Shown here piece after piece: positions 36,201-52,671 of a stretch of 64,000 nucleotides of DNA. The DNA is taken from contig JAFIEV010000082.1 in NCBI GenBank assembly GCA_020832305.1, positions 1 through 64,000 of the forward strand. Direction: 5' to 3'. This stretch comes from Cyclobacteriaceae bacterium. Its GTDB lineage: Bacteria > Bacteroidota > Bacteroidia > Cytophagales > Cyclobacteriaceae. Each line of letters starts with the position of its first letter. Positions within the stretch are counted from its first letter, which is position 1. The translations under genes and the position numbers were made by a program. The notes below the pieces were generated by a model. The model worked only from the letters and a program-made list of their open reading frames with translations, was not told the DNA's origin and did no database searches.

Positions 36201-37990
36201 CTTCAGCCCAAATCCAAAGGCGCAGATCTTTGTTCAGAGGGCAATTGATCGGATATGCCGAAAGTCTCCTACCTGATGATACCGTCATGCCCACCGATGA
36301 AATGGATTTTCTGGTGCGTACAGTAAATGCTGCAGGAAGTGGATCCATTCGCTTTGCTCCGGTTATGGAGAAAGCCAAAGTTCATGTAAAAAGCCTGGAA
36401 GAACTGCTCAATCTTTCCCTGCCTGTAGATATCCGTTTATTCGATGACCGCAACCCTTCAGGTGTTTTTGCCGAATTTATCAGCGCCATCCCCTTGGATT
36501 TCAACGGCCTTGCCGACCGGGCAGGCGCTTTCATTTGTCCGAATGCACCTCTAACCGCCTTATCCAGGGTACATGGTGTGGTTGCAGGGAAAATTGAAGA
36601 TATTGCCAGCCTTCAGTTCAATGCGCTGGATTTTTTCAACAATAACCTCGACCTGGGCGGCCTGGCCAAAATTTTTGGCGTAATACCCATCCACGAATTG
36701 CTTCAAACGGGCCTGCAGATACAAAATCAGGTAGCTCAATATGTTGATACCATTCAGCAGTTGGTGGCTCAATTGCGGGCAATCAGGGCAGATATTGAAA
36801 ATGCCAGATTGCTGCTCGAAGAAGCGGCCGAACAGGCCCGGTTTCAAATACAACAGGAAATACAAAACCTGCAGGCACAACTCCTGGAAAAACAAAATCA
36901 ACTTCAAAGCGAACTTCTGAACCATGTTCCCAGAATACCGGGCCTGAAAATATACAAAAAGGAAGATGCCGTTGTGGTGGAATATACCTGGCAACCTGTG
37001 CTTAAGCCGAACCTCGATATATTTGACATACTTCGTTTCAAAGTAGATGATACCCAAAACAGCTTAAGTATATTTTCAAGGGTCGAACGTCCTTTTGATA
37101 CCAGCAGACCTACTTTGTCTTCTGTCGAGTCCCGCCTGCAAAGTTTCCATATAGAATTGAAAAACATCTTAAGGGTATCTTTTGCATCGCTTGATTTCGT
37201 GAAATTACCTGGTGAAAAGGCCAATGTAAAGGTGAGCATGGCCGGGAATAAACCCATCGTCTTCCTGGGCCCGCTTACTTTTGTTAACGGACTGCAAAGG
37301 CTTATTCCCGGCGATGGTTTTGCCAAAGGGCCGCACCTGGATATACAGCCATCAGGTATACGAGCGGGCTATGAACTTGGCATTCCTTCGGTTGAAGTTG
37401 GAATATTAAGCATTGCCAACATAGCCCTCGGTGCGCGAATGCAGCTTCCGTTTACCGGTGCCCCACTGAGTTTTGCCTTTAACTTTTGCCGTCGGGAAAA
37501 TCCTTTTTTACTCACAGTTTCATGCTTTGGCGGGGGTGGCTTTTTTGCCCTGGAAAATTCAGTAAGAGGCCTTATGATGATGGAGGCAGCCTTTGAGTTT
37601 GGCGCTTCGGTATCCATTAACCTAGGCATTGCCAGTGGTGGAGCTTCTGTTATGGGAGGTTTCTATTTTAAGATGGAAATAGAAAATGAGTCGGGAAATA
37701 CACTTACTCAACTATGTGGCTATTTACGCATAAATGGTCACCTGAGTGTAATGGGACTCATCAGCCTGGCTATGGAATTCTTTCTGGCATTGTCATATGT
37801 AATCAGAAATAATAAATCCAACGAATTGTATGGTGAAGCTTCCATAAAGGTGAAAATATCTGTGCTCTTTTTTAAGAAAACCGTATCCGTTACGGCAAGA
37901 AGAACCCTCAAAGGAGCTGATGCCGATCCCACTTTTGCAGAAATGATTGAACCACAAGACTGGCTGGATTACTGCCGGGCTTTTGCTTAA
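33296..37990 (+). CDS. Giant Tat-exported protein of unknown function (1564 aa)
   Basis: A 1564-residue protein with a twin-arginine leader: residues 28-33 read RRKTLK, then VLGSSAIFSSPLASLAAHA with a likely cleavage near 52. The first 1100 residues are mixed and beta-rich, with no domain I can name. A basic, tryptophan/histidine-bearing block lies near 760-840 (LSTLGAWADFH and then EWEHRATMGRDHFVKV). A glutamine-rich coiled coil spans about 1128-1211. Residues about 1358-1500 are glycine-rich and hydrophobic (SCFGGGGFFALE, ASVMGGFYFKME) and look like membrane or barrel-forming beta strands. The stop is 16 bases before the next giant gene. I recall similar large paired hypotheticals in actinobacteria and myxobacteria, but this is unverified memory. 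Confidence 0.85.
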   Translation: MKLICIKSSWLKKQTTTAKIKVIQNQSRRKTLKVLGSSAIFSSPLASLAAHAMEKPYWHHKISGNRLSFFVRNEERWIVDASKFGASCKLNIQESEQYLDFHLENACLPGSAHPFYFNARVARAPSEKSVFKLAHCKAEMELDFPDWLLQISNAEAECQQDWRLQFNNDSVLGIPAKSRLRMYPDWSMHYTCRSKAKWSYHQRSFEFKKLHFTLSQIRNKDKFQEGFKPLSSIHIDKVEPSAEFLDLFKIDNLRLAAQHDFSFDDVNIYLGQLPGKVPAAVLTAVSGHDLNCQLKTESRHQVLLLTQPSFAIEMQREHSDFILTASNREQPMVLGDGLQNYVIGDVKHKAVFELKGKKGKVLKANYNAQLLATRFEIPGGISLPHKFAQPQKVEINFDKKTSARKKKRDQQIMVHPETGDIEWIHQRGALQFDLLRPEDLVLLTFNFYNCRFLRRNQQGFIQKDNQRQPTYLVIQFQPQHTLEEAFIEGNALPGPSSGATPDLPVRFVRSGASRLVFEMPEDFEGIPATMDQMLDWSKFSLRVNYRARASLPSIQNLYLAPQTTQMRLMRPQTSTPSSPVSPETDVSVTEMKVFEPKTQNLKIARHPRYTIREESVTYQPEKIQQLLPARNLQDFNTNIADDPPRRAFLRLREPDDLDTALEVPARLIISPNQLSHFTHRIQITEKERSEGDSNSNIVELWHTRLGVLLSNGKVDETSLAAFKTIRAIWSSDYGKPRRDNPFRASLDAHQRHYLVEQTSNYNIKNYTPRPVKAKKLMLSTLGAWADFHADFDFPDREGKNLPLLEWEHRATMGRDHFVKVAEAGYLYPFGHKAAIVTITERKMDANHMAAVNRQRMFIVVREPVKSFMPYGPENEFMGFPFQKIMLRTTATPDIDAPQNLLNIPIPGNRKDPDLVYNFWINVNNQPFYFDFQCIDRDGLISEMRLPLIFIGEAVATSAQHINSLNNAYASAQIQRRRSLFRGQLIGYAESLLPDDTVMPTDEMDFLVRTVNAAGSGSIRFAPVMEKAKVHVKSLEELLNLSLPVDIRLFDDRNPSGVFAEFISAIPLDFNGLADRAGAFICPNAPLTALSRVHGVVAGKIEDIASLQFNALDFFNNNLDLGGLAKIFGVIPIHELLQTGLQIQNQVAQYVDTIQQLVAQLRAIRADIENARLLLEEAAEQARFQIQQEIQNLQAQLLEKQNQLQSELLNHVPRIPGLKIYKKEDAVVVEYTWQPVLKPNLDIFDILRFKVDDTQNSLSIFSRVERPFDTSRPTLSSVESRLQSFHIELKNILRVSFASLDFVKLPGEKANVKVSMAGNKPIVFLGPLTFVNGLQRLIPGDGFAKGPHLDIQPSGIRAGYELGIPSVEVGILSIANIALGARMQLPFTGAPLSFAFNFCRRENPFLLTVSCFGGGGFFALENSVRGLMMMEAAFEFGASVSINLGIASGGASVMGGFYFKMEIENESGNTLTQLCGYLRINGHLSVMGLISLAMEFFLALSYVIRNNKSNELYGEASIKVKISVLFFKKTVSVTARRTLKGADADPTFAEMIEPQDWLDYCRAFA

Positions 37991-38006
37991 ATAATTAAAA
38001 TTAATT

Positions 38007-41000
38007 ATGTCTAAGGATATTATATTTACCTGTTTGCCACATAAAAGGCATGCCTCAAAAAATAATACACTGCTCCTGTCTGTTGCGGTTGAAATACACC
38101 TCAAGCCATCATCGCCCACAACCCTGGGCAGTTTTCCCGATGTGCTCAATTTTGCAGAAAAAATTAAAAATGCAAGTTATTCCTTCAGGCTGTCAAATGG
38201 ACAACCCGTACAGGGCAAGTTAATTGAACAAAATATTGAACCCGCTCTATGGACATCGCTCATGCATGCTGGCATAAAAGTGCGTGCTTTCGAAAATCCG
38301 GATATGGCCGAATACCGCATTCACAGTTATCCTGCCTCCCATATCAGCAGATTTATTCACCAACAGTATCAGCGTTTTGCCATCAGCCATCCCGACAAGC
38401 ATATAGAACCCGAACAAATTACTGCATCTGATGGATTGGGCAGGATATCGAGATATAAACCGGTTGAAGATAAGGATTTGGCTCCACGCCGGGATACAGG
38501 TACGACCCGCAGAATGGATACACCAGAGCTCGATGAAAGGGATTATTTGCGCAAGGATGACAGCTTCGATCAGCGGGTTAAAAAAATGATAGAAGCCAAT
38601 AAGTTTTACCCTCACAGTCAGGAATCTGAACCTGAATTTGACTTTGCCCGATTCAGAGATTTCTTTCAATATGACAGAAAGGGAAGAGAGGCAGGCTTAC
38701 CGCGATTGCCAAAGCCCGATTTTGAATTTCATGATATTCTCAGCATCATAAGCAGTTATCCGCAAATTCAGAGAAAGTTGGGCCTGGTCCTTGATTTTGA
38801 AATACAAACACCCGGAAGTAATTCAGGCAACATTCATATCGTGGTGCAAGACATCTCCTGGGATTCTCCCACCCGGGTATCATGTCCCAAAACAGCTTTT
38901 GAGGTCACTCAAAAAGGGTTTTATGCTGCTTCCGGCCAAAACAGCAATATTGACAAAGGCTTTCTTCGTGTCAATACCTCTGAATTTTCGGCAATACAGA
39001 TTGACACCGAAGGGGCTGCCATGAAAATACAAAATACAGTTGAGGACCAGGCCATACGCCAAACCAAGATCAAGGTATTGTCCTTCAACGTAAATGCCAG
39101 CCGCTTACTTCAATTGCAGGGATTGCCACCAGAGACACAGGAACCTGAAGCATTGCCAGCCAATCGCTCAGCCGGTATAGCGATTGTACAAAATGGACTG
39201 GCGGCTGATGTTCATCAAAAATTTAAGGTAGCCAATATTTTAAAAGGCAAGCTGCTCGACAGCAGTGCCATGATTCCTGCCTTTCAAGCCATTGTTTCAG
39301 ATGAAATACTTCGCGCTGATGAATTGGTGCAGGGTTATCGCATGGATATTGCCTATGCCGAGGACCCTGAAAAATGGTTTTCACTTCACTTTAAAAAAGA
39401 TGAATACACCTGGTTTGACGCGCAGGGCAATCCAAATAAAATTGAAGGCATAGAAGCCGATGAGGGTTACCTGCAATTTCAACTGGCAGGTGATCCTGAG
39501 CAGGAAGATGATGTGTACCTGCCCGAAAGTATTGCCCGATGGGAGGGCTGGAGTTTGTCTGTAAACCGCCCGGGTTACGCCATCAACGAAGCCGAAACAG
39601 AAGATGGCCGTGATTATGTTCATACAAACCGCAATCTGGAAGAACAAAAGTACCGTTTAGACAGCAGCCTGGATTTTCGTCTTGAAGCCAGGCCTTCGAT
39701 CGTTCCTGGCACCTTACCCCGGCTTCGTTTTGGGAGGAAATATCTGGTGCGCATCCGTACGGTTGATCTCGCTGGCAACAGTGTAGATGTTGGTCATCAG
39801 CCGGAAAATGCATCAGCCTGTGTGATGCCGGCAATACGCTATCTGCGTTATGAGCCGGTAGCCAGCCCGGTAGTATTGCCCGGTACTGAATTCAGACAGG
39901 GTGAAAGCCTGGAAAGAATGGTCATCCGCAGTAATTTCAATATCAGTTCTTCAGTCTATGAAGATGGCCTGCCAGCTGTGCATCGGAGGTCACCGGAGTC
40001 GATAAGGCATTTACTGGCACCGAAACAAGGGCAAATAATAGCTGAAAAACATGGCAAGTTTGATCTGGCTATGGGCGCCAAGCCCCAGATAGCAGCAGAA
40101 ATGTATCAGCTGATTACCAGCCGTGATGGCCTTTTTGAAGCCGGACCTGATGGAAATCAAAAAGTTTACGTCCAAAATCATGTGGAAATAGTTTATTTGC
40201 CAGATCCTATGGCTGCCGGTGTATCTTTTTTTCTGGCACCCTTCGCAGAAGATTCGCATAGCCAGCAATTTCAACCCCAAATGTTTTCATTTTTCAGCAA
40301 TCAGCAGTTTAATGAAAACAACAGCGATGTTGATATTCCCGAAAATGAATGGTATAAACCTAAATCTATGCGCATCCGCTTGCAGGAAGGCTCACTTAAC
40401 TCAATCTGGGATGCGGCCAACCGCATGCTTACCATTGCACTTCCCAAAGGGGAAAGAATGAAACTCCGCTACAGTTGCTGGTGGAGGAAAAAAGACCTTG
40501 AAGAATTTTCAGCCATGTGGGATGTGCTGGATCGCTCAGGGTCAAGCAACCTATCCGCTTTAAAACGTCTTGCTCAGGGAGGCCGACATTGGATGATCAG
40601 CCCTTTCAGAGAAATCGAACTGGTACATGCATTGCAGCAGCCGCTTCGGTTGCCGGTGATTAAAGCGATGGAGGCAGACAGAAATTATGGAGATACAACG
40701 GCCCAGATCAGTTTCAGATGTGAGGTTCATGCCCCTTCGACACAGCAATTAGATTTAACCTGTATCTGGAAGGAGCCGGAGGATTTAATTTATAAAGCCA
40801 ATCCCGAAGAAATAGAAAAAACAGGATCATTACATGATATCGCGGTGGCATATCGCGAAAATGAAGTTGGCAGAGGGACCCTCAGCGATGCTATGCAGCA
40901 AGGTTCCGGAGATGTCCGATTGAAATTGAGACAAAGAGCGCTGATCCAGGATTTTGGAGACACAAAATTCAGAAAAGTTCAATACAATGCCATAGCCATC

Positions 41001-42116
41001 AGCCGCTATCAGGAACACTTTGACGATTTGGTTAGACAACAAAATCTTGCTGTCAGCCGAAAGGGCCAGGGTTTTGATTATATTATTATTCCCAGCTCAT
41101 CCCGGCCACATAAGCCTGAAATAGAATACCTGATACCTACTTTTGAGTGGCAAAAATCGGAAAGCAGCACCAGAATGCAACACCGGCGCATGGGAGGGGG
41201 TGTGAGGGTATACCTTAAAAGACCATGGTACTCTTCAGGAGAGGGGGAAAAACTTGCCGTGGTACTGCCCAGAGGAGGTGCGGCAATGGGCCAATTGCAT
41301 ATGGCGGTTTCGGCACAAAATATTCAGCCTTTTAACCCCAATCTTACCTATTGGGCCATCGACCCAATAAAGCCTTCTGTTCCGGCCAATACATATTTTC
41401 CCAGGAGTGCAGATTTCAGATACAATCCGCATACCGAACAAGGACTTACCTTGCCCGGGACAGACCCTAATGCCAAAGTTGATGTGGTGGCCTATCCGGT
41501 AGAGTTTGATGCAGAAAGAAAACTGTGGTATGCCGATATGGCACTCAATACCCGGGAAATGTATTTTCCTTTTGTAAAGTTTGCCCTGGCCCGTTATCAA
41601 CAATATTCAGTAAGAAAGAACAATGCAGATGTTTGTCTTTCGGATTTAGTACAGGCTGATTTTATACAACTTGCCCCTGAGCGAATTTGTACCGTAGAGT
41701 TCAGAAGGGACGATCAAAACCGAAGGTTTACCATTACCATTGAAGGGGAAATGAGTCGAATTGAAGGAAGAAGAGGAGCGCCGGTCAATTATTTCGACAT
41801 TACTTTTCTCAAGCCCGGCTTTGGTCAGCCTGTGCAGATGATCATTGATGATGGTTCTACTGAGCGAAACCTTAGTGGAGAAAATGTACGGATAGTCATC
41901 AGCGCAAGTGATGTACAGGGTAGTCGTTTTAAAATCAACAGAAGTTTTAGCCTTCCGCGGCGATATAGAAATGAAAATTTTCTGATTGTAGTACAGGAAT
42001 TTGAATTGGGCGATACCCGGCAGCCGGGAAATGAAATTGGCAAATCATCCACCAGCTCAGACGAAAATCAGCCCAGGTTGGTCTTCGCCGATCGCTTTGA
42101 TGTGGATGCGGTTTAG
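38007..42116 (+). CDS. Giant protein of unknown function (1369 aa), partner of the preceding gene
   Basis: A 1369-residue protein without a signal peptide or clear membrane helix. Its composition is beta-rich and acidic/polar. A fibronectin/Ig-like segment at about 570-600 (RFGRKYLVRIRTVDLAGNSVD) is the only domain-like hint. The N-terminal hundred residues have an ALWTSLM...KVRAFENPD block. It follows the Tat-exported giant by 16 bases and the codon use looks alike, so the pair is surely an operon. Because the partner is exported and this one is not, the two may act in different compartments, or it may leave by a signal I cannot see. Confidence 0.85.
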   Translation: MSKDIIFTCLPHKRHASKNNTLLLSVAVEIHLKPSSPTTLGSFPDVLNFAEKIKNASYSFRLSNGQPVQGKLIEQNIEPALWTSLMHAGIKVRAFENPDMAEYRIHSYPASHISRFIHQQYQRFAISHPDKHIEPEQITASDGLGRISRYKPVEDKDLAPRRDTGTTRRMDTPELDERDYLRKDDSFDQRVKKMIEANKFYPHSQESEPEFDFARFRDFFQYDRKGREAGLPRLPKPDFEFHDILSIISSYPQIQRKLGLVLDFEIQTPGSNSGNIHIVVQDISWDSPTRVSCPKTAFEVTQKGFYAASGQNSNIDKGFLRVNTSEFSAIQIDTEGAAMKIQNTVEDQAIRQTKIKVLSFNVNASRLLQLQGLPPETQEPEALPANRSAGIAIVQNGLAADVHQKFKVANILKGKLLDSSAMIPAFQAIVSDEILRADELVQGYRMDIAYAEDPEKWFSLHFKKDEYTWFDAQGNPNKIEGIEADEGYLQFQLAGDPEQEDDVYLPESIARWEGWSLSVNRPGYAINEAETEDGRDYVHTNRNLEEQKYRLDSSLDFRLEARPSIVPGTLPRLRFGRKYLVRIRTVDLAGNSVDVGHQPENASACVMPAIRYLRYEPVASPVVLPGTEFRQGESLERMVIRSNFNISSSVYEDGLPAVHRRSPESIRHLLAPKQGQIIAEKHGKFDLAMGAKPQIAAEMYQLITSRDGLFEAGPDGNQKVYVQNHVEIVYLPDPMAAGVSFFLAPFAEDSHSQQFQPQMFSFFSNQQFNENNSDVDIPENEWYKPKSMRIRLQEGSLNSIWDAANRMLTIALPKGERMKLRYSCWWRKKDLEEFSAMWDVLDRSGSSNLSALKRLAQGGRHWMISPFREIELVHALQQPLRLPVIKAMEADRNYGDTTAQISFRCEVHAPSTQQLDLTCIWKEPEDLIYKANPEEIEKTGSLHDIAVAYRENEVGRGTLSDAMQQGSGDVRLKLRQRALIQDFGDTKFRKVQYNAIAISRYQEHFDDLVRQQNLAVSRKGQGFDYIIIPSSSRPHKPEIEYLIPTFEWQKSESSTRMQHRRMGGGVRVYLKRPWYSSGEGEKLAVVLPRGGAAMGQLHMAVSAQNIQPFNPNLTYWAIDPIKPSVPANTYFPRSADFRYNPHTEQGLTLPGTDPNAKVDVVAYPVEFDAERKLWYADMALNTREMYFPFVKFALARYQQYSVRKNNADVCLSDLVQADFIQLAPERICTVEFRRDDQNRRFTITIEGEMSRIEGRRGAPVNYFDITFLKPGFGQPVQMIIDDGSTERNLSGENVRIVISASDVQGSRFKINRSFSLPRRYRNENFLIVVQEFELGDTRQPGNEIGKSSTSSDENQPRLVFADRFDVDAV

Positions 42117-42522: not shown

Positions 42523-43422
42523 TTATTTATTTTCTTTTCCATTAAATGCTAGTTCAAATTCATCTTTTAATATTGATTGCGTTTTAGATGTTATAAATTC
42601 ATCATTTATAAAGCAATGATTTATAAAAAACATCCAATTGTCAAATGTTACAGGAAATGAAAGTGTGGAATCAATGTAGGTTATAAGAATTTTGTTTCTA
42701 TTTAACTTGAATATTGATTTGCCAACTTCAGGTTTTTCGTTTAAATAATTGATTATGTCAGCATCAAGTCCCTTTAGTAAAAAGCGTAAACGCAATTTGT
42801 TTCTCAACATAGCTTCCCACTTTTTTGCCTTGTAATGTTGGTATGAAATGTCGTCAAATAATGCTTTTAAGGCTTGGTCATTAGTTTCAAGAGTTGCATA
42901 TATTCCATTCAACATTCTGCCTTCTGTTGTAAGAGGTTCCCAGTCGGGTTTACATTTGTACCTCATTAAATGGTCAACTTCGTGCCAACCTTCTGATAAA
43001 GTTGTCCTGAACTGAATTTCAAAGGTGTTGTCAATCAATTCGTATTGAGGATTATTCGGCTTCATTTCTTGAAAAAAGCTCGTTTCAGACTCTGGCATTC
43101 GACAAATCATATTTTTTCTAAGTGGTTTAAACACTTCTGATTCTGGTTCATCATATACTAATTCCACTTTCTCGAAAATCTTTTCGCACAAGTCAACGAC
43201 TATTTTAATATCGTCACTAAAGTAAGTTGTAATCCGAAAACCAACGAGGTCTTGCATCAATTCTGTGCCAGGAGAATATGTTTTTCTTGTAAATTTTTCA
43301 TCAATAGAAGTTTGCTCCTTAACTCTGGAAAAAAGGCGAAATAGCAAGCCTGTCCTTGTCAACTCGTTAACAAGTTTTTCCTTTAAACGCTTTTCAATTA
43401 GTTCTAATCCGTATTCTGACAT
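42523..43422 (-). CDS. RelA/SpoT-type nucleotide pyrophosphotransferase in a defence operon
   Basis: A 299-residue single-domain RelA/SpoT-like protein. The ATP-site motif RxKxxxSIxxK is intact (R33, K35, S39, I40, K43). DLVGFRI (58-64) gives the metal-binding Asp58, and EIQFRT (135-140) gives Glu135 with WHEVDHLMRYK (146-156) as the closing element. No HD hydrolase domain is present. Between 64 and 135 the usual G-loop with Y-x-S-x-H, where the pyrophosphate acceptor guanine stacks, is absent; the segment instead reads KPLRKNMICR...FFQEMKPNN. The acceptor may therefore not be GTP/GDP. The C-terminal 120 residues are unassigned. It starts 3 bases after the NACHT gene stop, as the last gene of the operon. 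It may be an effector like the toxSAS/CapRel synthetases, but no antitoxin domain is seen. Confidence 0.87.
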   Translation of the reverse strand: MSEYGLELIEKRLKEKLVNELTRTGLLFRLFSRVKEQTSIDEKFTRKTYSPGTELMQDLVGFRITTYFSDDIKIVVDLCEKIFEKVELVYDEPESEVFKPLRKNMICRMPESETSFFQEMKPNNPQYELIDNTFEIQFRTTLSEGWHEVDHLMRYKCKPDWEPLTTEGRMLNGIYATLETNDQALKALFDDISYQHYKAKKWEAMLRNKLRLRFLLKGLDADIINYLNEKPEVGKSIFKLNRNKILITYIDSTLSFPVTFDNWMFFINHCFINDEFITSKTQSILKDEFELAFNGKENK

Positions 43423-43425
43423 TTC

Positions 43426-45588
43426 TTAACTATTTCTGTATTTATCATTGTAGTAGGAGATACCGTGCCGGGTTAAGAAACTTAAATCACCATTAAGTTG
43501 AATGATGCTTTCTGCTTCTAGCTTGTGCAAAATTCTGCTTATAGACTTGGTGTCTAGTTCTGAAAGTTCATTTTTGATGTAAGAAAGTTGTCTATGACGT
43601 GGTTTGAAACTGCCTTTCTTAAAATAGAGATCAAGAATTTCTTTTTCAATGTTGATATTCTCATTTACTATTACCTCTTCACAATCAAAGATGTTTTGAA
43701 CGAAATCATTGTCACCAGTGCAACCAAATATTGTAAAATAACTATCAGAATAAGCAATTCCTGTATCAACTAAGTGGCAATTGAAAAATCTACAATTTAC
43801 AAATGAGGAATTTTTGAATGCTTCAAATGAAAATTCACAATTTGTAAAAGTACAAGCGGTAAATATTGCCGATTCAAATTGCCCCTTTTTGGTAAATGAA
43901 TATGTATCTAGACTGAAATCGTTTAAAATAGCATGTTTATAATTGCGAACAATTTCATTTTTGAAATCAATATCTATTTTGAAATAAAATTGAGGGTCAA
44001 ATGGAAAAGGGAACTCATTAAATACTTTCCAAAGTTTTTCCTTGTTTTCTTTTGGTTGAACTTGATATGCTTGAGTTGCAAGAAGAGCAAACATTTGTGA
44101 AATTTTCTCATAGAAAGTTTTACTGTATTGTAAATATTTTCCTAATATCAAATTTTCACCGATTAGTGTACCCAAAACAAACTCATTAACTATTCCTATC
44201 ATTCCTTTTTCTTTTCTGTCTAAAAAGGCGTGATTTGATAGAATGTCAGCAAGTTGGTCTGTTCTTGGTCTTTTGTCAGGAGTATACTTCCTCTTCGTTT
44301 CTTCTAAAATTGTTTTGTTGTAATCTAGAATTAAATCTTTAATAAATTCTTTTGATTCCGCTTTTACATCCCATTCAGTAAGGAATCGAACTAATTTTCT
44401 AAAAATCCGCAGTTGTGTTTCAGGTTCAATTAACAAGCCTTGGCGTGTTTGCTCCCTTGTGAGTAAGAAATCAAAGTAGCGATCAACTATAGATTTACCT
44501 TCAACACCCATTTCTTTGAGTTCGTCAATTTTCACATATCGTAAATAGGTTAGAAGTACAGGGTTTGCAATTTGCTCAACTGGAAAGTTATTTGACTGAA
44601 CAATTTCAAGTCTTTCACGTGGTAACCAATTTTCAATTGATGGCTCTGAAATGGTCACCTTTGAAAGTGTATAATCAATATTCCTATCAATCATCCAATT
44701 GTGAAATTCTTCACTATTGAAAATCGCTGTTTTACGAGAAGTGATTATTACCTTGGCGTTGTCTGTCAGCAAGTCCACAATTGTTGAAAGCATACTTTCA
44801 ACTTGTTCAAATTGATTTGAAGAAAATGAAAAGTCTTTTGAAATTAACTCATCAAATCCATCAATGATAAGCGGTATACGACCTTTTTTGATTTGATGTA
44901 TTACAACATTAGAATCTACTCGATTTGAAAATTGTTCTTCAATTTCAAATGCCAAAATATGCTTGAAAATAGATGCCTTTCTATCTCTTGAAAGTTCAGT
45001 AAAGAATGGAAGTTTGTTGGAAGGTATTGAAATGAATTCGTTTAAGATTTCATAAGCGGTACAAGTCTTACCATAACCAGCAGCGGCTTCAAGGATTATT
45101 AAAAGTGGCCCAACGTGTTCATTAATTTGTTTTGTAATTGAAGCTACTAATGCATTGTTGTCATCATCTGCTCTAATTGAAATGGTTTTTGTATCGTCTT
45201 GGTTAAGTTCGTAGTTAGTATAATCGTATGAGCTTCTTATGTATTCATATTTGGCATTTTCAGGTAAGTTATTCATTAATTTACCAACGAAAGATTCATA
45301 TCTTCTTTTTAGATTTTGGATTACTCCTTCTGCTTTGAAAAAATCTTTGAATAGAAAGTCTTCTGCTTCCTCAATATTCTTAAAGGTTCTGACTTTAACA
45401 GCATAACCAGAATCAGCATATTGCTTTTTCAATTCTTCGGCTTCTTCATCCGTTCCAGTTTTTACAATGTCTGCACCATTGTAAATACTCTTTGTAAACA
45501 AGTAAACACGAGTTGCTTTGTTCTTACGGGGTTCATATCCGTAACGAATGTAAAGATTATCTAACTCATTTATGAATGCTTCAATCAT
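43426..45588 (-). CDS. NACHT-type STAND NTPase with pentapeptide-like C-terminus
   Basis: A 720-residue STAND ATPase. The N-terminal 130 residues are an alpha/beta region without a known fold that I recognise. The NTPase core has Walker A AAAGYGKT (168-175), Walker B IPLIIDGFDELI (238-249) with the NACHT-style DGFDE, and a sensor VIITSRKTAIF (280-290). A helical winged region follows, then a stretch near 585-660 with pentapeptide-like repeats (FTACTFTNCEF, SSFVNCRFFNC), and a winged-helix-like end. STAND proteins sense a trigger and oligomerise to activate an effector. Here no effector domain is fused, and the RelA/SpoT gene 3 bases downstream is the natural candidate. It begins 25 bases after hsdR. 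Confidence 0.88.
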   Translation of the reverse strand: MIEAFINELDNLYIRYGYEPRKNKATRVYLFTKSIYNGADIVKTGTDEEAEELKKQYADSGYAVKVRTFKNIEEAEDFLFKDFFKAEGVIQNLKRRYESFVGKLMNNLPENAKYEYIRSSYDYTNYELNQDDTKTISIRADDDNNALVASITKQINEHVGPLLIILEAAAGYGKTCTAYEILNEFISIPSNKLPFFTELSRDRKASIFKHILAFEIEEQFSNRVDSNVVIHQIKKGRIPLIIDGFDELISKDFSFSSNQFEQVESMLSTIVDLLTDNAKVIITSRKTAIFNSEEFHNWMIDRNIDYTLSKVTISEPSIENWLPRERLEIVQSNNFPVEQIANPVLLTYLRYVKIDELKEMGVEGKSIVDRYFDFLLTREQTRQGLLIEPETQLRIFRKLVRFLTEWDVKAESKEFIKDLILDYNKTILEETKRKYTPDKRPRTDQLADILSNHAFLDRKEKGMIGIVNEFVLGTLIGENLILGKYLQYSKTFYEKISQMFALLATQAYQVQPKENKEKLWKVFNEFPFPFDPQFYFKIDIDFKNEIVRNYKHAILNDFSLDTYSFTKKGQFESAIFTACTFTNCEFSFEAFKNSSFVNCRFFNCHLVDTGIAYSDSYFTIFGCTGDNDFVQNIFDCEEVIVNENINIEKEILDLYFKKGSFKPRHRQLSYIKNELSELDTKSISRILHKLEAESIIQLNGDLSFLTRHGISYYNDKYRNS

Positions 45589-45613: not shown

Positions 45614-48523
45614 TTACACTGTCATTCCGTTAATAAATGTTTCTACAAAATCTTTTATGCGTTGCAGAATTCTGTCGCCTAATTTTTTGCGTTGAAGTAA
45701 ACTTGGTTTTTCGCCTTCAATGAGTTCTAGAACTTCATCACGGAGTGGCTCTCTTTCCGCAAATAAGTAGTCTTCAATGAGTTTTTCTGTTTTTTCGGCA
45801 GATAGATTTTCTTCTGAAACAATTTTAGAAAACTCCTTTTGCTGTTCTTCATTCCAAAACTGCTCAAATGCAGGAGTAATGTTGTCGGGGTCGTTTATAA
45901 TTGGAAGATTCTCCAAAATGAATTTCTCTATGAGCTCTCGTTTACTTCTTAATGTTGCTTCGGTGCTCAATAAGTTGAAAATTTCCTTTTCTGCTTTTGT
46001 CGTGTCTTTCTGTGTTTGTGATTTCAGCTTGATTAAAAGCTGAATGATGTATGAAACATTGATTTCATCACGGTGTATCAACTCCAATTCAAAGTCCACA
46101 TCTTCCAAAATAGAGACTTTCTCCTTTTGATGGTTGCTTTTTACTTTGTCGTATAAGTCAAGGTATTTGCTTTTAAAATCCTCAAATTGCTGTTCGTTCA
46201 TTTTCAAATCTTCCCATTTGAAGTCTGAAAAGGCTGTGAGAATGTTTTTTATCCTCATTAAATCACGGAACGCCTTAATGAAGTTCAGTTCGTCATCTTC
46301 GGTTTCAAGGTCGTTTACTGCGTCTGTTGTCGGTGTAACTTCCAACAACTTTTCAAATGCTTCATCAAACTTGGCAACATAATCTTCATAAGGTTTCATT
46401 ATGATAACCTCAATCGCTTCTTTGTTGCTGAATAGGGTAATGGCTTCATCTGTTCGGTTTTTCAGGTTTCTGAAAACAACAATATTTCCCTGTGATTTCT
46501 GTTCGTTTAAAATTCGGTTAGTTCGGCTGAATGCTTGAATCAATCCGTGATATTTTAAGTTCTTGTCAACGTAAAGCGTGTTCACTTTCTTGGCATCAAA
46601 ACCTGTTAAAAACATATTAACCACCAATAAAACATCAATGCGATTGTTTACATTTTCGGGTTGGCGTTCTCTGTCTTTCAGTTTCTTTGAAATATCGTTG
46701 TAGTAGTTGTAAAAATCCTCACTGGTTTTGGTAGAATATTTTACATCATACAATTGATTGTAGTCTTCAATATACTCGTCCAATTTTTCACGGCTGTGGG
46801 CTTGCAAGCCATATAAAGCCCTTGGTTCTTCTACAACAGAAACTTCTTCGGGAATAAAGCCATTGGCATCTGCATCATCTTCATTGGCTGCATAGCTGAA
46901 AATGGTTGCAATATTTAGATTGTGTTCTCCTGCTAATTTTTTGCGTTTGAAAATGTCGTAATAGCGAATCAATGACTTTACACTGTCCACACAAAACATT
47001 GCTGAAAAATCTTTGCTATGTGTTTTTCGGTTGTGATTGTTGATGATGTAATCGGCAATTTTTTCTAATCGCTTTTCATCTTCCATCAACTCCTGCGTGT
47101 CAATGTCTTCAACCTCAATATCTATTTCGGTTGCAGTATCTTTTTGCTTGTATCTGCCTACATACTCAACTGAAAACTTCAACACGTTTTCGTCTTTAAT
47201 GGCATCTGTAATTACGTATTTGTGCAAACAGTCTTCAAAAAGGTCTTTGGTTGTTCGTTTGCCCAATTCGTTTTTGTTGGCATTGTCGGCAAAAATGGGA
47301 GTTCCTGTAAATCCGAACATTTGAGCATTGTTGAAATACTCTTTTATTCTATTGTGTGTTTCTCCAAACTGGCTTCGGTGGCACTCGTCAAAAATGAAAA
47401 TGATTCGCTTGTCTTTCAAGTCAGCCATTTTCTTTTCGTACTTCAATTTGCTGATGGCAGTATTGAGTTTTTGAATGGTGGTAACAATCAATTTGGTGTT
47501 TTTGGCTTCACCTTTTTTGTCTTTGTATGTGCCAATAAACTGTTTTACCAAATTGGCGGTATTGTCTGTGCCATCAATGCAACCATCACTAAAACTGTTG
47601 AACTCTTTTGTGGTTTGGTAGTCCAAATCTTTTCTGTCCACTACAAAAACAACTTTGTGAACTTCAGGGAAATTCATCAAAATTTGACTGGCTTTAAAAC
47701 TGGTTAAGGTCTTGCCCGAACCTGTGGTATGCCATATATAACCGTTTTTGTTGGAGTTTTTTACTCGTTCAATTAGTGCTTCTACTGCATAAAATTGATA
47801 CGGACGAAGTACCATTGGAATTTTATAGGCTTCATTGAGTACAATGTATTTGCAAATCATTTTACTGATGTGGCAAGGCTCTAAAAAAGCATCTGTAAAA
47901 CCATTGAGAATATTGGTCAATCGCTTGTTTTCAAAATCTGTCCAATAGAAAGTTTGCTTGAAACTTTGGTTTCGGTTGTTGGCGTAATACTTTGTATTTA
48001 CTCCGTTGCTGATGATGAAAATCTGAACGTATTGATACAAAGCCGAATTTGCACCAAATGAATGCCGTTGATAGCGGTTGACTTGGTTAAAGGCTTCTTT
48101 GAGTTCCAATCCTCTGCGTTTGAGTTCAATTTGAACCAAGGGCAAACCATTGATTAAAATCGTAACATCATAACGGTTTTTATATTTCCCCTCTTGGGTT
48201 ACTTGGTTGGTTACTTGGTATTGGTTTTGACACCAATGCTCTGTATTCAGAAATTCAAAATAGAGGTTGTCTCCGTTATCCCTTACAATATGTTGTTTTT
48301 GGCGAAGTGTTTTTGACTTTTCAAAAATCGAACCTTTGTTTAATAGGTTAAGTACCTTGTCAAATTCAGCATCTGAAAACGAAATTTGATTGTGTTTTTC
48401 TAATTGACTTTTAAGGTTTGCTATCAGTGCTTTTTCGTCTGCAATAGGAAAGTAAGCATAACCCAATTTTTGTAACTGGGCAATCAATTGTTCTTCTAAT
48501 ATTTGTTCGCTTTGTTTAGACAT
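45614..48523 (-). CDS. hsdR: Type I restriction enzyme, R (translocase/endonuclease) subunit
   Basis: A 969-residue HsdR. The PD-(D/E)xK nuclease is near the N-terminus: D119, E133-x-K135 (QIELKRRG) and the QxxxY helix (Q147, Y151). The SF2 translocase has Walker A TTGSGKT (266-272), the IFDECHRSQFGE motif II, FGFTGTPIF motif III and the FLTGFDAKKVNTLYVDK/QAFSRTNR motifs V and VI. A helical C-terminal region joins it to the methylase. All catalytic residues are intact. It starts 1 base after the wHTH-TM gene stop. Confidence 0.95.
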   Translation of the reverse strand: MSKQSEQILEEQLIAQLQKLGYAYFPIADEKALIANLKSQLEKHNQISFSDAEFDKVLNLLNKGSIFEKSKTLRQKQHIVRDNGDNLYFEFLNTEHWCQNQYQVTNQVTQEGKYKNRYDVTILINGLPLVQIELKRRGLELKEAFNQVNRYQRHSFGANSALYQYVQIFIISNGVNTKYYANNRNQSFKQTFYWTDFENKRLTNILNGFTDAFLEPCHISKMICKYIVLNEAYKIPMVLRPYQFYAVEALIERVKNSNKNGYIWHTTGSGKTLTSFKASQILMNFPEVHKVVFVVDRKDLDYQTTKEFNSFSDGCIDGTDNTANLVKQFIGTYKDKKGEAKNTKLIVTTIQKLNTAISKLKYEKKMADLKDKRIIFIFDECHRSQFGETHNRIKEYFNNAQMFGFTGTPIFADNANKNELGKRTTKDLFEDCLHKYVITDAIKDENVLKFSVEYVGRYKQKDTATEIDIEVEDIDTQELMEDEKRLEKIADYIINNHNRKTHSKDFSAMFCVDSVKSLIRYYDIFKRKKLAGEHNLNIATIFSYAANEDDADANGFIPEEVSVVEEPRALYGLQAHSREKLDEYIEDYNQLYDVKYSTKTSEDFYNYYNDISKKLKDRERQPENVNNRIDVLLVVNMFLTGFDAKKVNTLYVDKNLKYHGLIQAFSRTNRILNEQKSQGNIVVFRNLKNRTDEAITLFSNKEAIEVIIMKPYEDYVAKFDEAFEKLLEVTPTTDAVNDLETEDDELNFIKAFRDLMRIKNILTAFSDFKWEDLKMNEQQFEDFKSKYLDLYDKVKSNHQKEKVSILEDVDFELELIHRDEINVSYIIQLLIKLKSQTQKDTTKAEKEIFNLLSTEATLRSKRELIEKFILENLPIINDPDNITPAFEQFWNEEQQKEFSKIVSEENLSAEKTEKLIEDYLFAEREPLRDEVLELIEGEKPSLLQRKKLGDRILQRIKDFVETFINGMTV

Positions 48524-48524
48524 T

Positions 48525-48914
48525 TTACGATTTTATTAAAGCTATTATTGCTACTGCAAGCGATAGCAAAGAAATAAGAATCGGAATCCACCAATATTTA
48601 ACTGAAAGCTCTTTTGCTTTTTCAACTTTCGATTTTGGGTCAATTACTTTCTTTTTATAATCATCCCAACCATTATATTTTTCAAAAACTTCGTAGCCGT
48701 TACTTTCAAGTTGTAACCCCCATTTTCCACCACCACTTACTGATTTTAGATTAGAAACTAAATTGTGATTTAATAGGTAAGTTACAAATCGTTTTTCAGT
48801 CTGTATGACAGCCCGCTTTATTTTAGTTTCACCCATATTGATAGGATTATTATACAATTCATTCAATATGCGGACAATTTCTTCCTGAAATATTTTGTCG
48901 TAATCTTTATTCAT
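48525..48914 (-). CDS. Small winged-helix-like protein with a C-terminal membrane anchor
   Basis: A 129-residue protein inserted between hsdS and hsdR with no spacing to either (0 and 1 base). Residues about 1-80 look like a winged helix (EEIVRILNELYNN, KRAVIQTEKRFVTYLLNHNLV, GGGKWGLQLESNGYEVFEKY). A single transmembrane helix occupies about 107-128 (WWIPILISLLSLAVAIIALI) after a lysine-rich linker. I do not know a type I R-M subunit like this. Tail anchoring could tether the complex or sense the membrane. Confidence 0.7.
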   Translation of the reverse strand: MNKDYDKIFQEEIVRILNELYNNPINMGETKIKRAVIQTEKRFVTYLLNHNLVSNLKSVSGGGKWGLQLESNGYEVFEKYNGWDDYKKKVIDPKSKVEKAKELSVKYWWIPILISLLSLAVAIIALIKS

Positions 48915-50141
48915 TTAGCAAAACATTTTTTGTAAAAGTCCTTTTTTCCAAGTTTCAACTTTTGAAATCTGGTTTTCAGAAATACCAATTTTCACATCAA
49001 TCTCGGATAGGAAGTTTGAAATTTTTATTTGTTCGTTATTATTTGGAATGGAAATTTCCATTTTGACTAGGCTTTCATAACTTAATGTGTTTCTAACACT
49101 GCCTTCAAAAGAACTATTCATTTGTCTAATAAATTCTTGTGAGGAAAACCAATTCAACAGAAAACTGTCCTTTAAATAATCCTTGTTTGATTTGAAAGAA
49201 ATATATAAAGGGCTGATAACAGATATTTCATCATCAAATTTATAGGCTAAAGAACCTACATTAATTCTTGAAGGATTATAGGCAAAATGTCCTTTTTCAA
49301 TCACATAATAATTTGAAGTATCTTTACTAGCAACTCGCCTGTCTTCAAACATTTCATCTTGATTTATAAAACCGTGTTTATTACTAACACTTTGGACTAA
49401 TGAATATTTTTGACCTTTGTTTTTAACTGAATTCTTAATCAAAACCTTTCCCAAATTTCTAATTTCCCAATCAGGAAAATCATTTCCATTTTCATCTTTA
49501 AAGCGTAACTCTTGCGAAAACAGTTTTTGCATTACGCCTTTCTTGTATTGTTCTAAATGGGCTTTTTTATTTTTTAAAGCTTGGAGTTTCTTTTCTATGG
49601 AAGTTAGGAAACTTGCAACTTTAATTTGTTCGGGAAGCTTCGGAAGCATTATTTCTAATGTTTTCAAATCAGAATTATACACATTGCTAATGCTTACGCC
49701 TTTGGCTAAAGTCGAGATAGTTTTCCTTAATTTTTCATTGATGTAGTATGAAACATAAATTTGAGAATATATATTTTCCTTTGCTGGTTTTAAAATATTA
49801 ATGGTTCTTCCAATAGCTACGTTTCTAATTGTTAAGGCAGAAGCTGAACCAATATCTAAAGGGTCTTCCCCTGCTGATGGAAGTAAGATTTCGTCACCAT
49901 TACTAAAAAGCAATTCAGATTTATCTAGGTTTGTCTTATTTATAACTTCACTTATTACCTCATTATACATATGATATAATTCGCCATATCTAACACACGG
50001 AATTTCAAATTCGGGTGATGCTTCATTTTGCTTTATATTTTTTCCTGTTGAGAAAAGAAAGATTTCCTTGAAAAAGTGTTTTTTGTACAAATTTTCTTTT
50101 TCAACCCTAAATTCAGGAAAACGCAACTTCGGTATATTCAT
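48915..50141 (-). CDS. hsdS: Type I restriction enzyme, S (specificity) subunit
   Basis: A 408-residue HsdS with two target-recognition domains (about 1-180 and 205-380) separated by coiled-coil spacers (SIEKKLQALKNKKAHLEQYKKGVMQKLF, then a second near the C-terminus). It sets the bipartite DNA target; the target sequence cannot be read from the protein. I start at ATG 50141, which gives a TAATG overlap with the phosphatase-like gene, matching the TGATG overlap upstream. An earlier Met at 50153 adds four residues. Confidence 0.93.
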   Translation of the reverse strand: MNIPKLRFPEFRVEKENLYKKHFFKEIFLFSTGKNIKQNEASPEFEIPCVRYGELYHMYNEVISEVINKTNLDKSELLFSNGDEILLPSAGEDPLDIGSASALTIRNVAIGRTINILKPAKENIYSQIYVSYYINEKLRKTISTLAKGVSISNVYNSDLKTLEIMLPKLPEQIKVASFLTSIEKKLQALKNKKAHLEQYKKGVMQKLFSQELRFKDENGNDFPDWEIRNLGKVLIKNSVKNKGQKYSLVQSVSNKHGFINQDEMFEDRRVASKDTSNYYVIEKGHFAYNPSRINVGSLAYKFDDEISVISPLYISFKSNKDYLKDSFLLNWFSSQEFIRQMNSSFEGSVRNTLSYESLVKMEISIPNNNEQIKISNFLSEIDVKIGISENQISKVETWKKGLLQKMFC

Positions 50142-50626
50142 TAAATTCCCCATCTTCTTTTTATGTATAGTAGGTTTCCATTCTTCGGTTGGTAGTTCGG
50201 ATAATATTCGTTTTTAAAAATTTGAAAAGTATTGGTTGATTTTTCTATCAGATTGTTTTCCAATAAATACATCAAAGCAATTGACGGGCTTCTTGATTCT
50301 CCCAAACTACAATACACAAATACTTCATTTCCGCTCGATATGTGTTCGTGTATAAATTCTAATGCAGGATTAATCATTGCATCATTTACATATTTTGGGT
50401 CGTCTCCGTCAATCATATTCAAGTAAATAGCACTTTCATCACGTCTGAATAAATAATGTGGGTGTCGAGGGTCGCAACCTCTTCCTTGCCAACCCACCAC
50501 AGATTGATGCGTAACAAAACCATTAGCACGATTCAAAGCACAAACAATCTTCATTTCTCTTTGTCGAGCAATTCCGTATTGTTCTTTTACTCCTACAAAT
50601 AGAGGTATGTCTTTAATTTGCTTCAT
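50141..50626 (-). CDS. Dual-specificity phosphatase-like protein embedded in the hsd operon
   Basis: A 161-residue protein of the cysteine-based phosphatase superfamily. The P-loop is YCSLGESRSPS, so C106 and R112 give the CX5R signature, with tyrosine where histidine usually precedes the cysteine. Acidic residues D73, D75 and D76 (MIDGDD) lie where the general acid would be. The substrate could be phosphoprotein, RNA or a nucleotide. It overlaps hsdM (TGATG) and hsdS (TAATG) by one base each, so it is translationally coupled into the R-M operon. Confidence 0.8.
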   Translation of the reverse strand: MKQIKDIPLFVGVKEQYGIARQREMKIVCALNRANGFVTHQSVVGWQGRGCDPRHPHYLFRRDESAIYLNMIDGDDPKYVNDAMINPALEFIHEHISSGNEVFVYCSLGESRSPSIALMYLLENNLIEKSTNTFQIFKNEYYPNYQPKNGNLLYIKRRWGI

Positions 50627-52221
50627 CAGAAAGGCGTTGAAATATTTAATTCTTTACAAAAATCAGCAATGGTTTTATCTGTCTCTTTTATACTTTCATC
50701 AATGGCTTTAATTTCATTGGCAATGGCTTCAATATCAATATCGGCTTCTGCCTCAAAAGTGTCCACATACCTTGGAATGTTTAGGTTATAGTCGTTTGAT
50801 GTAAGTTCTGTTAATAATGCTTTTTTACTGTATTTGTCTTTTTCTGTTCTGTTTCGGAAAGTGTTAATGATTTTATCAATGTGTTCGTCACGCAACACGT
50901 TTTGAGTTTTTACTTTCTCATAATCATTACTGGCATCAATAAATAAAACATCTTCAGGATTTTCACGGCATTTTTTGAAAACCAATATGCAAGTGGGAAT
51001 ACTTGTACCATAGAATATATTGGCAGGTAATCCAATAACCGTATCTAAATAGTTTTTATTCTCAATCAGGAATTTACGAATGTGCTGTTCTGCACCGCCT
51101 CTAAATAAAGCACCGTGAGGTAAAACAATTGCCATAGTTCCATTTTCTGCCAAATGATAAATCATATGTTGCACAAAGGCAAAATCGGCTTTACTGCTTG
51201 GTGCTAATTTACCGTATTGGCTAAAGCGGTCGTCACTCGTAAAAATAGGGTTTGCACTCCAATTCGCAGAAAAAGGCGGATTGGCAACAATGGCTTCAAA
51301 AGGTAAATCGTCAATATGTTGCGGATGTTCAAGTGTGTCTTCTTGTTTGATATCAAACTGGCGATAATGTACACCGTGCAGAATCATATTCATTCGGGCA
51401 AGGTTGTAGGTGGTACGGTTCATTTCTTGTCCGTAAAACATTGCCACATCTTTTACTTCTCTTGCCACTCGCAACAATAATGAACCTGAACCACAAGTAG
51501 GGTCGTAAACTGATTTAAGTTTTTGCTTTCCTGTGGTAACAATCTTTGCCAATATTTTAGAAACTTCCTGCGGTGTATAAAATTCACCTGCTTTTTTACC
51601 TGCACCGCTGGCAAATTGTCCAATCAAATATTCGTAAGCATCACCCAAAACATCTAATTCCGTATTTTCCAACTTGAAATCAATCTTGTCAAGGTGCGTC
51701 AGCACCTTTGCAATAATTGTATTTCTTGCTTCTGGAGTTTTGCCAAGTTTGGTACTGTTCAAGTCCATATCTTCAAAGAGGTTGTCAAAATCCTCTTCGC
51801 TGTCAGTACCCATTGTACTCAACTGTATGTTGGTCAGTATTTTTTGAATGTCTTCAAGTATGAAGTTTGTTTTGCTTTCGTCAAAAAGGTCAATGTCTTC
51901 ATTGTTGCCCATTCCTCTTTTAGCCACTTCGGTAAAGAGTTCTTCGGGTCTAAGGAAATAGCCTAATTTTTCCAAAGCTTCTTCTTTTATAGCTTCTAAA
52001 AAGTCATTGGCTTGTGCTGTTTTTGGAGTTATATCCCGAAACTTAATTTTGTCTTGCTTCAAAATAACATTAGCGAAAATTTCCATTTTCTCGCTCAGAT
52101 ATTTATAGAAAATGAAGCCCAAAATATAGTCACGGAACTCGTCCGCATTCATTTTGCCTCTCAGCGTATTGGCTATATTCCAAAGTTGTTGTTCTAATAC
52201 TCGTTTTTGGTCTTCACTCAT
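50626..52221 (-). CDS. hsdM: Type I restriction enzyme, M (N6-adenine methylase) subunit
   Basis: A 531-residue HsdM. An N-terminal helical domain (LRGKMNADEFRDYILGFIFYKYLSEKM) precedes the methylase core with motif I DPTCGSGSLLLRV, where S-adenosylmethionine binds, and motif IV IVANPPFSANW, the NPPF catalytic box for N6-adenine. FYTPQEVSKIL is the usual approach segment. A C-terminal helical arm follows. Complete and first in the operon, so the promoter should lie within 52222-52431. Confidence 0.96.
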   Translation of the reverse strand: MSEDQKRVLEQQLWNIANTLRGKMNADEFRDYILGFIFYKYLSEKMEIFANVILKQDKIKFRDITPKTAQANDFLEAIKEEALEKLGYFLRPEELFTEVAKRGMGNNEDIDLFDESKTNFILEDIQKILTNIQLSTMGTDSEEDFDNLFEDMDLNSTKLGKTPEARNTIIAKVLTHLDKIDFKLENTELDVLGDAYEYLIGQFASGAGKKAGEFYTPQEVSKILAKIVTTGKQKLKSVYDPTCGSGSLLLRVAREVKDVAMFYGQEMNRTTYNLARMNMILHGVHYRQFDIKQEDTLEHPQHIDDLPFEAIVANPPFSANWSANPIFTSDDRFSQYGKLAPSSKADFAFVQHMIYHLAENGTMAIVLPHGALFRGGAEQHIRKFLIENKNYLDTVIGLPANIFYGTSIPTCILVFKKCRENPEDVLFIDASNDYEKVKTQNVLRDEHIDKIINTFRNRTEKDKYSKKALLTELTSNDYNLNIPRYVDTFEAEADIDIEAIANEIKAIDESIKETDKTIADFCKELNISTPF

Positions 52222-52431: not shown

Positions 52432-52671
52432 TTAAAATTTAGCGTTAACTTCCAATATATGAACATTGCTTTTTTGAATTTTTTCTTTCAAATCCAGAAA
52501 AAAGTAGGCGGGCAGCCTTTGCAGGTTGGAGCTTCTTATCACGAGGTCCAAATCACTACCTTCAAAGGCATCACCGGTGACTCTGCTGCCATAAGCCCAG
52601 ATTTCTATTGGAAAATCTATCGTATTAAAAATTTCTATTAGACGTATGCGGTCTTTATCCCTCAATAGCAT
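52432..52671 (-). pseudogene. Truncated MNT-type nucleotidyltransferase (HEPN/MNT antitoxin remnant)
   Basis: A 79-residue product with the minimal nucleotidyltransferase motif: YGSRVTGDA (27-35) and SDLDLVI (39-45), the GSx...DxD site that AMPylates HEPN toxins. Intact proteins usually run to about 95-110 residues with a C-terminal D..W..I stretch and third acidic residue; here the frame stops after ILEVNAKF. No downstream frame restores the end, so it is probably inactive or a remnant. It lies between the R-M operon and the Gfo/Idh gene. Confidence 0.65.

Follow-up and report, generated by a model that had tools for sequence, protein, structure and literature searches.

The locus examined here raises the question of what a RelA/SpoT-like enzyme modifies, and under whose control, when its ATP-donor site is intact and the motif that ordinarily holds the pyrophosphate acceptor has been replaced. 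The window, which is the whole 64,000-nt stretch of DNA that was analysed, contains a minus-strand gene for a 299-aa protein (P0001; 42523..43422), whose reading frame, strand and coordinates were given correctly in a first-pass annotation, and which is a RelA/SpoT-like effector candidate by its ORF, its Pfam family, its AlphaFold2 model and its structural matches to RelP and RelQ. In particular, it matches PF04607 (RelA_SpoT) above the curated cut-off (1.4e-12; 48.3 bits against 27), and its model, built from an alignment of 60 sequences, has a mean pLDDT of 91.8. The nearest solved structures to this model are RelP/RelQ (6fgk; Z 15.9, rmsd 2.8 over 170 residues), followed at lower scores by CapRel (Z 11.2) and Tas1 (Z 10.9); sequence profiles also return RelP/RelQ as the best solved matches, and the best Foldseek match has an E-value of 1.6e-6 and a TM-score of 0.44 by query length. 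The C-terminus continues for approximately 100 residues beyond RelP/RelQ and is mostly helical in the model. The genome that carries the window (6.48 Mb, 89 contigs) encodes one further protein that matches PF04607, a 739-aa long Rel on a different contig from the pair (G000:C56), and this Rel has an ordinary NGYESLH loop.

The family was sampled by scanning one genome per species across 84,980 species, using peptide patterns drawn from two stretches of the protein, SEGWHE and DxTFExQ; the scan returned 197 relatives, and the best 80 were analysed. The alignment of 85 rows consists of these 80, the window protein and four plasmid members, and excludes a plasmid relative at 212 bits, below the 250-bit line (L016), a second copy of one plasmid protein (L015, identical to L014) and a copy of the window (L002). 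An 84-row set, used for entropy counts, omits the truncated L045. The best 80 relatives are mostly labelled Bacteroidota or Pseudomonadota. Several others are Bacillota, two records that share a metagenome project are labelled Campylobacteraceae, and Myxococcales and Cyanobacteria are each represented by one metagenome-assembled record; the Campylobacteraceae, Myxococcales and Cyanobacteria records, and L039, may be mis-binned. A scan of viral contigs with the single protein found no relative, and the same scan with an alignment found seven. Within the phylum of the window, a search of 395 genomes with P0001 returned the window genome and eight remote RelA-type proteins only, and PF22723, a domain of the partner protein described below, occurs in one of the 395, which is the window's own, so the family is sparse.

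The first-pass annotation had assigned R33, K35, S39, K43, D58 and E135 to ATP-donor and metal binding, and all six residues are present and unvaried across the 84 rows. The donor motif R33-x-K35-x3-S39-x3-K43 (43294..43326, minus strand) is kept in 84/84 rows, or in 84/85 when L045 is included; that protein, which has lost its N-terminus and adjoins IS-like ORFs, is the single departure in the donor motif. The ORFs ahead of it are presumably IS21-like. The D58-x2-G-x-R63 motif (43234..43251, minus strand) would supply a metal-binding Asp and an adenine-contacting Arg, by analogy with FaRel2 and RelP, and its residues are conserved in 85/85 (D58), 80/85 (G61) and 85/85 (R63) rows. On the predicted strand beta5, E135-x-Q137-x-R139 (43006..43020, minus strand) is found in 85/85 rows and its Glu is expected, by analogy with RelP, to bind metal; all six residues of the S143-E-G-W-H-E148 motif (42979..42996, minus strand) are likewise found in 85/85 rows. 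Both of these stretches supplied search patterns, so they are in part conserved by construction; no such bias touches the donor motif, D58 or the acceptor loop. The roles of the donor-site residues are carried over by analogy from RelP and FaRel2, as described in the available excerpts of PMC5794853 and PMC11782079. Overall, 24 positions show no variation in the 84 rows; R33, K35, S39, K43, D58, R63, E135, Q137, R139 and H151 are among the unvaried residues, and the 24 include donor and metal residues together with F98 and N104 of the altered loop, which fits the expectation for a working enzyme.

On the acceptor side, the loop between beta3 (residues 84-90) and beta4 (103-108) of the model spans residues 91-102, which is where the G-loop lies in small alarmone synthetases (PMC5794853, in part). 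Alignment of the family profile to a profile of 16 outgroup proteins (hhalign; probability 99.7, E 3.8e-26) places F98-KPLRK-N104 (43111..43131, minus strand; the end of the beta3-beta4 loop and the start of beta4) in register with FGYxSxH and free of gaps, pairing P100 with Tyr, R102 with Ser and N104 with His. When HMMER is used to align the protein to a solved chain of the RelQ type, the register at the loop shifts by one residue, and P0001 has no Tyr at the site there either. Across the family alignment, position 100 is Pro in 56 rows, Ala in 22 and Val in 7, with Tyr in 0/85, and it is flanked by F98 (85/85), R102 (78/85) and N104 (85/85), so that FGYxSxH becomes Fx[P/A/V]xRxN. The outgroup comprises 16 of the proteins that lie outside the family but nearest to it (eight returned by the search of the phylum, L017, five other plasmid proteins and two phage proteins; the host Rel was excluded from the hhalign comparison), and the pattern [G/A]Y-x-[S/G]-x-H matches 14 of these as well as the host Rel. 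By eye, L108 (RYSSVH) also fits, so that 15/16 keep Y-x-[S/G]-x-H; the sole departing protein, L104 from Lactococcus, has His in the place of Tyr. F98 is common to most outgroup proteins, and R102 and N104 are not.

These alignments refine what had been proposed for the loop. The first-pass annotation had reported that the usual G-loop is absent and that KPLRKNMICR and EMKPNN stand in its stead: the Y-x-S-x-H motif is indeed gone, but the loop itself is not missing, and KPLRKN is the altered G-loop, whereas EMKPNN lies outside residues 98-104. EMKPNN was considered as a G-loop remnant and rejected because hhalign puts the loop at 98-104. F98 was considered as a stand-in for Tyr and also rejected, since among the 16 proteins that keep the Tyr (15 outgroup proteins and the host Rel) the residue two positions before it is already Phe in 14, Trp in one and Asn in the host Rel. 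As judged from the aligned residues, the G-loop is rebuilt and has gone beyond mere loss. A change of the acceptor site is well supported, because donor and metal residues that do not vary go together with family-wide replacement at the Tyr, Ser and His positions, and to that extent the earlier suggestion of a non-standard acceptor holds; the candidates it offered, tRNA or ATP/ADP, do not follow. In the excerpts available, the G-loop Tyr is described as critical for GDP/GTP (PMC5794853), for the tRNA-modifying FaRel2 (PMC11782079) and for the antiphage CapRel (PMC9712102), and a conserved acceptor-base Tyr is also cited for the (p)ppApp maker Tas1 (PMC11782079). Relatives that use tRNA or ATP thus use the same Tyr, so its loss does not favour these acceptors over GTP. 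Arg in place of Ser could still engage a base or a phosphate by stacking or by clamping.

Two plasmid proteins bear separately on the loop. The L104 protein (L104:745-1893, Lactococcus plasmid pUCCL630B) also belongs to the RelA/SpoT group and has no Tyr in its G-loop (KNGHKIYKV); the motif may have been lost here a second time and independently. The part examined of its downstream gene matches DndB. Further, the relative on an [Eubacterium] eligens plasmid (L016:5905-7734) is 609 aa long; its loop is altered in a similar way (FRAMKING), its C-terminus is extended by a long stretch that matches no Pfam family, and no NACHT gene adjoins it.

The gene that precedes P0001, which the first-pass annotation did not include, encodes a 720-aa NACHT protein (P0002; 43426..45588, minus strand) and ends 3 bases upstream of it. 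Its N-terminal domain belongs to an inactive-nuclease family (PF22723, NA-iREase2; 45220..45567, minus strand; Pfam 5e-34), followed by a NACHT domain (44722..45099, minus strand) with Walker A GYGKT and Walker B IIDGFDE, and, near the C-terminus, by a pentapeptide-like stretch (43726..43929, minus strand) that scores 0.0025 with Pentapeptide_4, below the cut-off, and appears as a row of short strands in the model. The Pfam NACHT model (PF05729, cut-off 26.7) scores the window protein at 25.4 bits and L012 at 22.9, both below the cut-off, and L013 at 29.1, above it. The AlphaFold2 model of P0002 (mean pLDDT 82.3) resembles the NACHT of NLRP3 (Z 13.5, 237 residues, rmsd 4.8) and NOD2 (Z 12.7), and scores lower against AAA+ ATPases such as ORC and NSF (Z 10-11). 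Moreover, G171, G173, K174, T175 and D243-E247 are invariant among 55 NACHT sequences. P0002 therefore has a NACHT fold with both Walker motifs, and its N-terminal PF22723 domain, of an inactive-nuclease family, does not qualify as an active effector domain. No Asp, Glu or Lys stands among the invariant or near-invariant columns of that domain in the 55 sequences, which agrees with an inactive nuclease. According to excerpts of PMC12169576, other bacterial NACHT proteins carry an N-terminal effector, and in one NACHT clade some proteins lack a discernible effector domain yet defend; since such effector-less proteins still defend, an inactive N-terminus is no proof that the neighbor is the effector.

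The two genes are the conserved unit. Among the best 80 of the 197 relatives, a NACHT frame immediately precedes the RelA-like gene on its strand in 73 loci; 69 of these frames are full-length (at least 690 aa) and four short or split (cut at a contig edge in L072; split in L076, L077 and L092), with a gap between the stop-to-stop frames of -73 to +175 bases. The scan query was built from NACHT-paired members, so the pairing rate may be lower beyond these 80. The NACHT gene is also present in 4/5 distinct plasmid relatives examined (L012, L013, L014 and L018, with L016 lacking it; L015 encodes the same RelA protein as L014, and H3 and H8 were left out) and in 7/7 viral contigs, one of them split and four being near-copies of the E. 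coli allele. The pair is thus found across several phyla, on plasmids and in viral contigs. Across 72 loci, the pairwise identities of the RelA-like and NACHT proteins correlate (r = 0.91), as expected if both proteins travel together. When the genes are compared with those of the three closest relatives, dN/dS lies at 0.016-0.060 for the RelA-like gene and at 0.023-0.039 for the NACHT gene; dS exceeds 1 in four of the six comparisons, and it was undefined in six of eight comparisons with more distant relatives.

Seven of the 80 loci have no NACHT frame: L043 begins at a contig end, L045 lies behind its IS-like ORFs, and five look intact and show no NACHT frame in the stretch examined (L029, L032, L036, L064 and L074). 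These five imply that the RelA-like enzyme may have a role of its own. Four of them, L029, L032, L036 and L064, form one Bacteroidales clade that keeps all donor residues and has possibly been recruited to a different function. A tree built by a quick method, with several long branches, needs three changes to explain the members without NACHT, which fits repeated NACHT loss.

In the window, 25 bases separate the pair from the type I restriction-modification operon that precedes it on the same strand, and the G+C content of this region is 0.30-0.37 against 0.40-0.41 in the flanks. The operon (45614..52221, minus strand; assigned by Pfam) contains hsdM, hsdS and hsdR together with a dual-specificity-phosphatase-like gene between hsdM and hsdS (50141-50626, minus strand; PF00782, 2.6e-9) and a 129-aa ORF with a hydrophobic C-terminal stretch between hsdS and hsdR (48525-48914, minus strand), which has no Pfam or PADLOC family and no NCBIfam model at cut-off. 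Upstream of hsdM, a 79-aa ORF (52432-52671, minus strand; GSRVTGDAFEGSDLDL) reads as what we take to be a small nucleotidyltransferase, and on the plus strand two adjacent, very large ORFs of 1564 and 1369 aa (33296-42116) have no Pfam match at 0.001. The restriction-modification genes were considered as a constant part of the module and rejected: hsdR- or hsdM-like matches occur in only 6/84 loci searched, four of which (L022-L025) carry close relatives of the window gene. Among neighbors of up to 900 aa, 112/131 upstream and 107/131 downstream proteins were scanned, the remainder belonging mainly to NACHT-less loci, near-duplicate loci and contig ends, and family counts refer to the best 25 of 117-195 families per scan. 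Among the matches listed, restriction-modification families account for at most 5/112 upstream and 2/107 downstream proteins; upstream, type I specificity and methylase families reach 4-5/112 and integrases 3/112, and the largest downstream Pfam groups reach 3/107. Away from the window the neighbors thus vary and are mostly ordinary, and they give modest evidence for a defense island.

Natural breaks in E. coli bear on how the two proteins depend on each other. Of 5,426 complete genomes, 67 have any match to the RelA-like gene (60 at 80% of the query or more) and 60 have a match to the NACHT gene (54 at 80% or more); the best 60 of the 67 RelA-like matches were taken row by row, and an allele from a Klebsiella plasmid has no match among these genomes. 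In strains ML35 (L100) and RM10410 (L101), the pair sits at ssrA, the tmRNA gene, next to an integrase gene; in both, IS elements mark the points at which the NACHT gene is broken. The NACHT gene is visibly broken in 20 genomes (6 with a shortened match, 2 with an inserted IS and 12 with a 2,135-base match annotated as two proteins; the doubtful case MLI104K2, with 2,131 bases, was excluded), and in 17 of these the matched part of the RelA-like gene, 795 of 906 bases, is unbroken; the other three (OY754443, E2 and Z1323CEC0017) have an indel in the RelA-like gene as well. The reverse state, a broken RelA-like gene beside a full NACHT match, occurs in at least four genomes, and five listed genomes have the second half of the RelA-like gene only and are absent from the NACHT matches. 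Many of the matching genomes look clonal, so that the counts are not independent events. The persistence of the RelA part in 17/20 genomes indicates that the NACHT protein is not needed to keep the RelA-like gene harmless. Tolerated NACHT breaks agree with an activating role for the NACHT protein, although an inserted IS may silence the gene that follows as well.

Taken together, these observations point, with a probability just short of even, to a two-gene and probably antiphage module in which a NACHT sensor controls a RelA-like effector that holds its acceptor in a new way. The analysis itself establishes the fold, the preserved ATP-donor residues, the replacement of the loop in register, the conservation of the pair, its wide distribution and the tolerance of NACHT loss among natural isolates; we infer the defense role, the activation by NACHT and the pyrophosphate transfer. 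Carriage on plasmids, on viral contigs and next to an integrase at ssrA counts in favor of this reading as a whole. In the proposed mechanism, the NACHT protein would act as sensor and switch, perhaps triggered by a phage protein; once triggered, it would assemble, bind the RelA-like enzyme and activate it. Because the NACHT protein's own N-terminal domain is an inactive nuclease, the RelA-like protein would be the effector in trans, moving pyrophosphate from ATP to an acceptor so that growth stops. The acceptor would be held through the Fx[P/A/V]xRxN loop, and not by the Tyr of the (p)ppGpp, (p)ppApp and tRNA pyrophosphokinases. A more specific version, that the acceptor of the NACHT-gated module is neither a Tyr-stacked guanine or adenine nucleotide nor the CCA end of tRNA, and that the module makes a new immune product or pyrophosphorylates a target of a new kind, is put forward tentatively.

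Two alternatives retain the enzyme and assign it a familiar acceptor. It is doubtful, and still worth weighing, that P0001 pyrophosphorylates the tRNA 3′-CCA end, as FaRel2 and CapRel do, and that R102 and nearby residues take over from Tyr in holding the terminal adenine. CapRel is an antiphage effector (PMC9712102, in part) and, as its structural score indicates, has the same fold; toxSASs are described with a basic groove for the CCA end (excerpts of PMC11559606); and several basic residues away from the donor site are conserved in at least 90% of the 84 rows (R102, R154, R169, K198, R207, K209, R211, K235 and R242). However, the excerpts available indicate that FaRel2 Y128F is catalytically impaired (PMC11782079) and that CapRel Y155A loses defense (PMC9712102), the best structural matches are RelP/RelQ rather than CapRel, and the near-neutral net charge (median -2 across 63 family proteins; -6 and pI 5.5 for the window protein) is mildly against the reading. 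Synthesis of a standard purine alarmone, be it (p)ppGpp or (p)ppApp, with R102 stacking on the base in Tyr's stead, would agree with RelP/RelQ being the nearest solved relatives and with the Arg-base stacking that RelP already uses on its ATP side (PMC5794853, in part), but it is unlikely when Tyr and His are replaced in every row, Ser has mostly become Arg, R102 itself is absent from some rows, and nearly all outgroup proteins keep the motif.

The remaining alternatives change the relationship between the two proteins. If the RelA-like protein were a pseudoenzyme that only binds ATP and regulates the NACHT protein, a replaced acceptor motif beside a kept ATP site would, taken by itself, suit a mere ATP sensor too; a pure ATP sensor, however, need not keep both D58 and E135 unvaried along with the donor residues, nor an unvaried F98/N104 loop, and this reading is considered very improbable. 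The least probable reading is a toxin-antitoxin pair in which the NACHT protein neutralizes a RelA-like toxin: the genes are adjacent, the partner comes first and some pairs are plasmid-borne, but the E. coli genomes with a broken NACHT gene and a whole RelA part argue against it, not finally, as an IS may silence the toxin, and so do the five intact members without an adjoining NACHT frame. The reading of a NACHT-controlled enzyme with a rebuilt acceptor loop is therefore the one preferred here. If it is true, a bacterial relative of NLR immune receptors makes use of a branch of RelA/SpoT chemistry that adds to those known for nucleotide alarmones and tRNA, and a simple signature in the loop, Fx[P/A/V]xRxN where FGYxSxH would stand, sets this branch apart. 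The presence of the RelA-like gene in E. coli makes the module testable in standard hosts and against standard phage collections.

Among known systems, the PADLOC 2023 models recognize neither protein of the pair (the best match of the RelA-like protein is PDC-S33, at 0.0016, and the NACHT protein has none), and no description of a NACHT-RelA/SpoT pair was found in the openly accessible literature; it may already be on record in Kibby et al. 2023 (Cell) or in Jimmy et al. 2020 (PNAS), the likeliest places for it. In excerpts, RelA domains are mentioned in other NTPase-based conflict systems (PMC7159879), RelA/SpoT-like proteins are listed among toxins on Tn7-like transposons (PMC8649781), and the DefensePredictor study reports a large number of validated E. 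coli systems (PMC13092281). RelP and RelQ, also PF04607 proteins, have the same fold and ATP-donor site as P0001, whereas P0001 has replaced the Tyr, Ser and His of the loop, is longer at its C-terminus and has a NACHT partner. The host's long Rel shares PF04607 with P0001, but it keeps its NGYESLH loop and is a separate gene on another contig. The toxSASs FaRel2 and CapRel have the RelA/SpoT fold in common with P0001; in contrast, they need the G-loop Tyr, according to the excerpts cited above, and P0001 lacks it. Their controller is a known antitoxin or a pseudo-zinc-finger domain; the constant neighbor of P0001 is a NACHT protein. The bacterial, NLR-related NACHT antiphage proteins have an NLRP3-like NACHT ATPase and an NA-iREase2 N-terminus in common with P0002, and unlike them P0002 has an N-terminus that is an inactive nuclease, its likely effector being the separate RelA-like protein.
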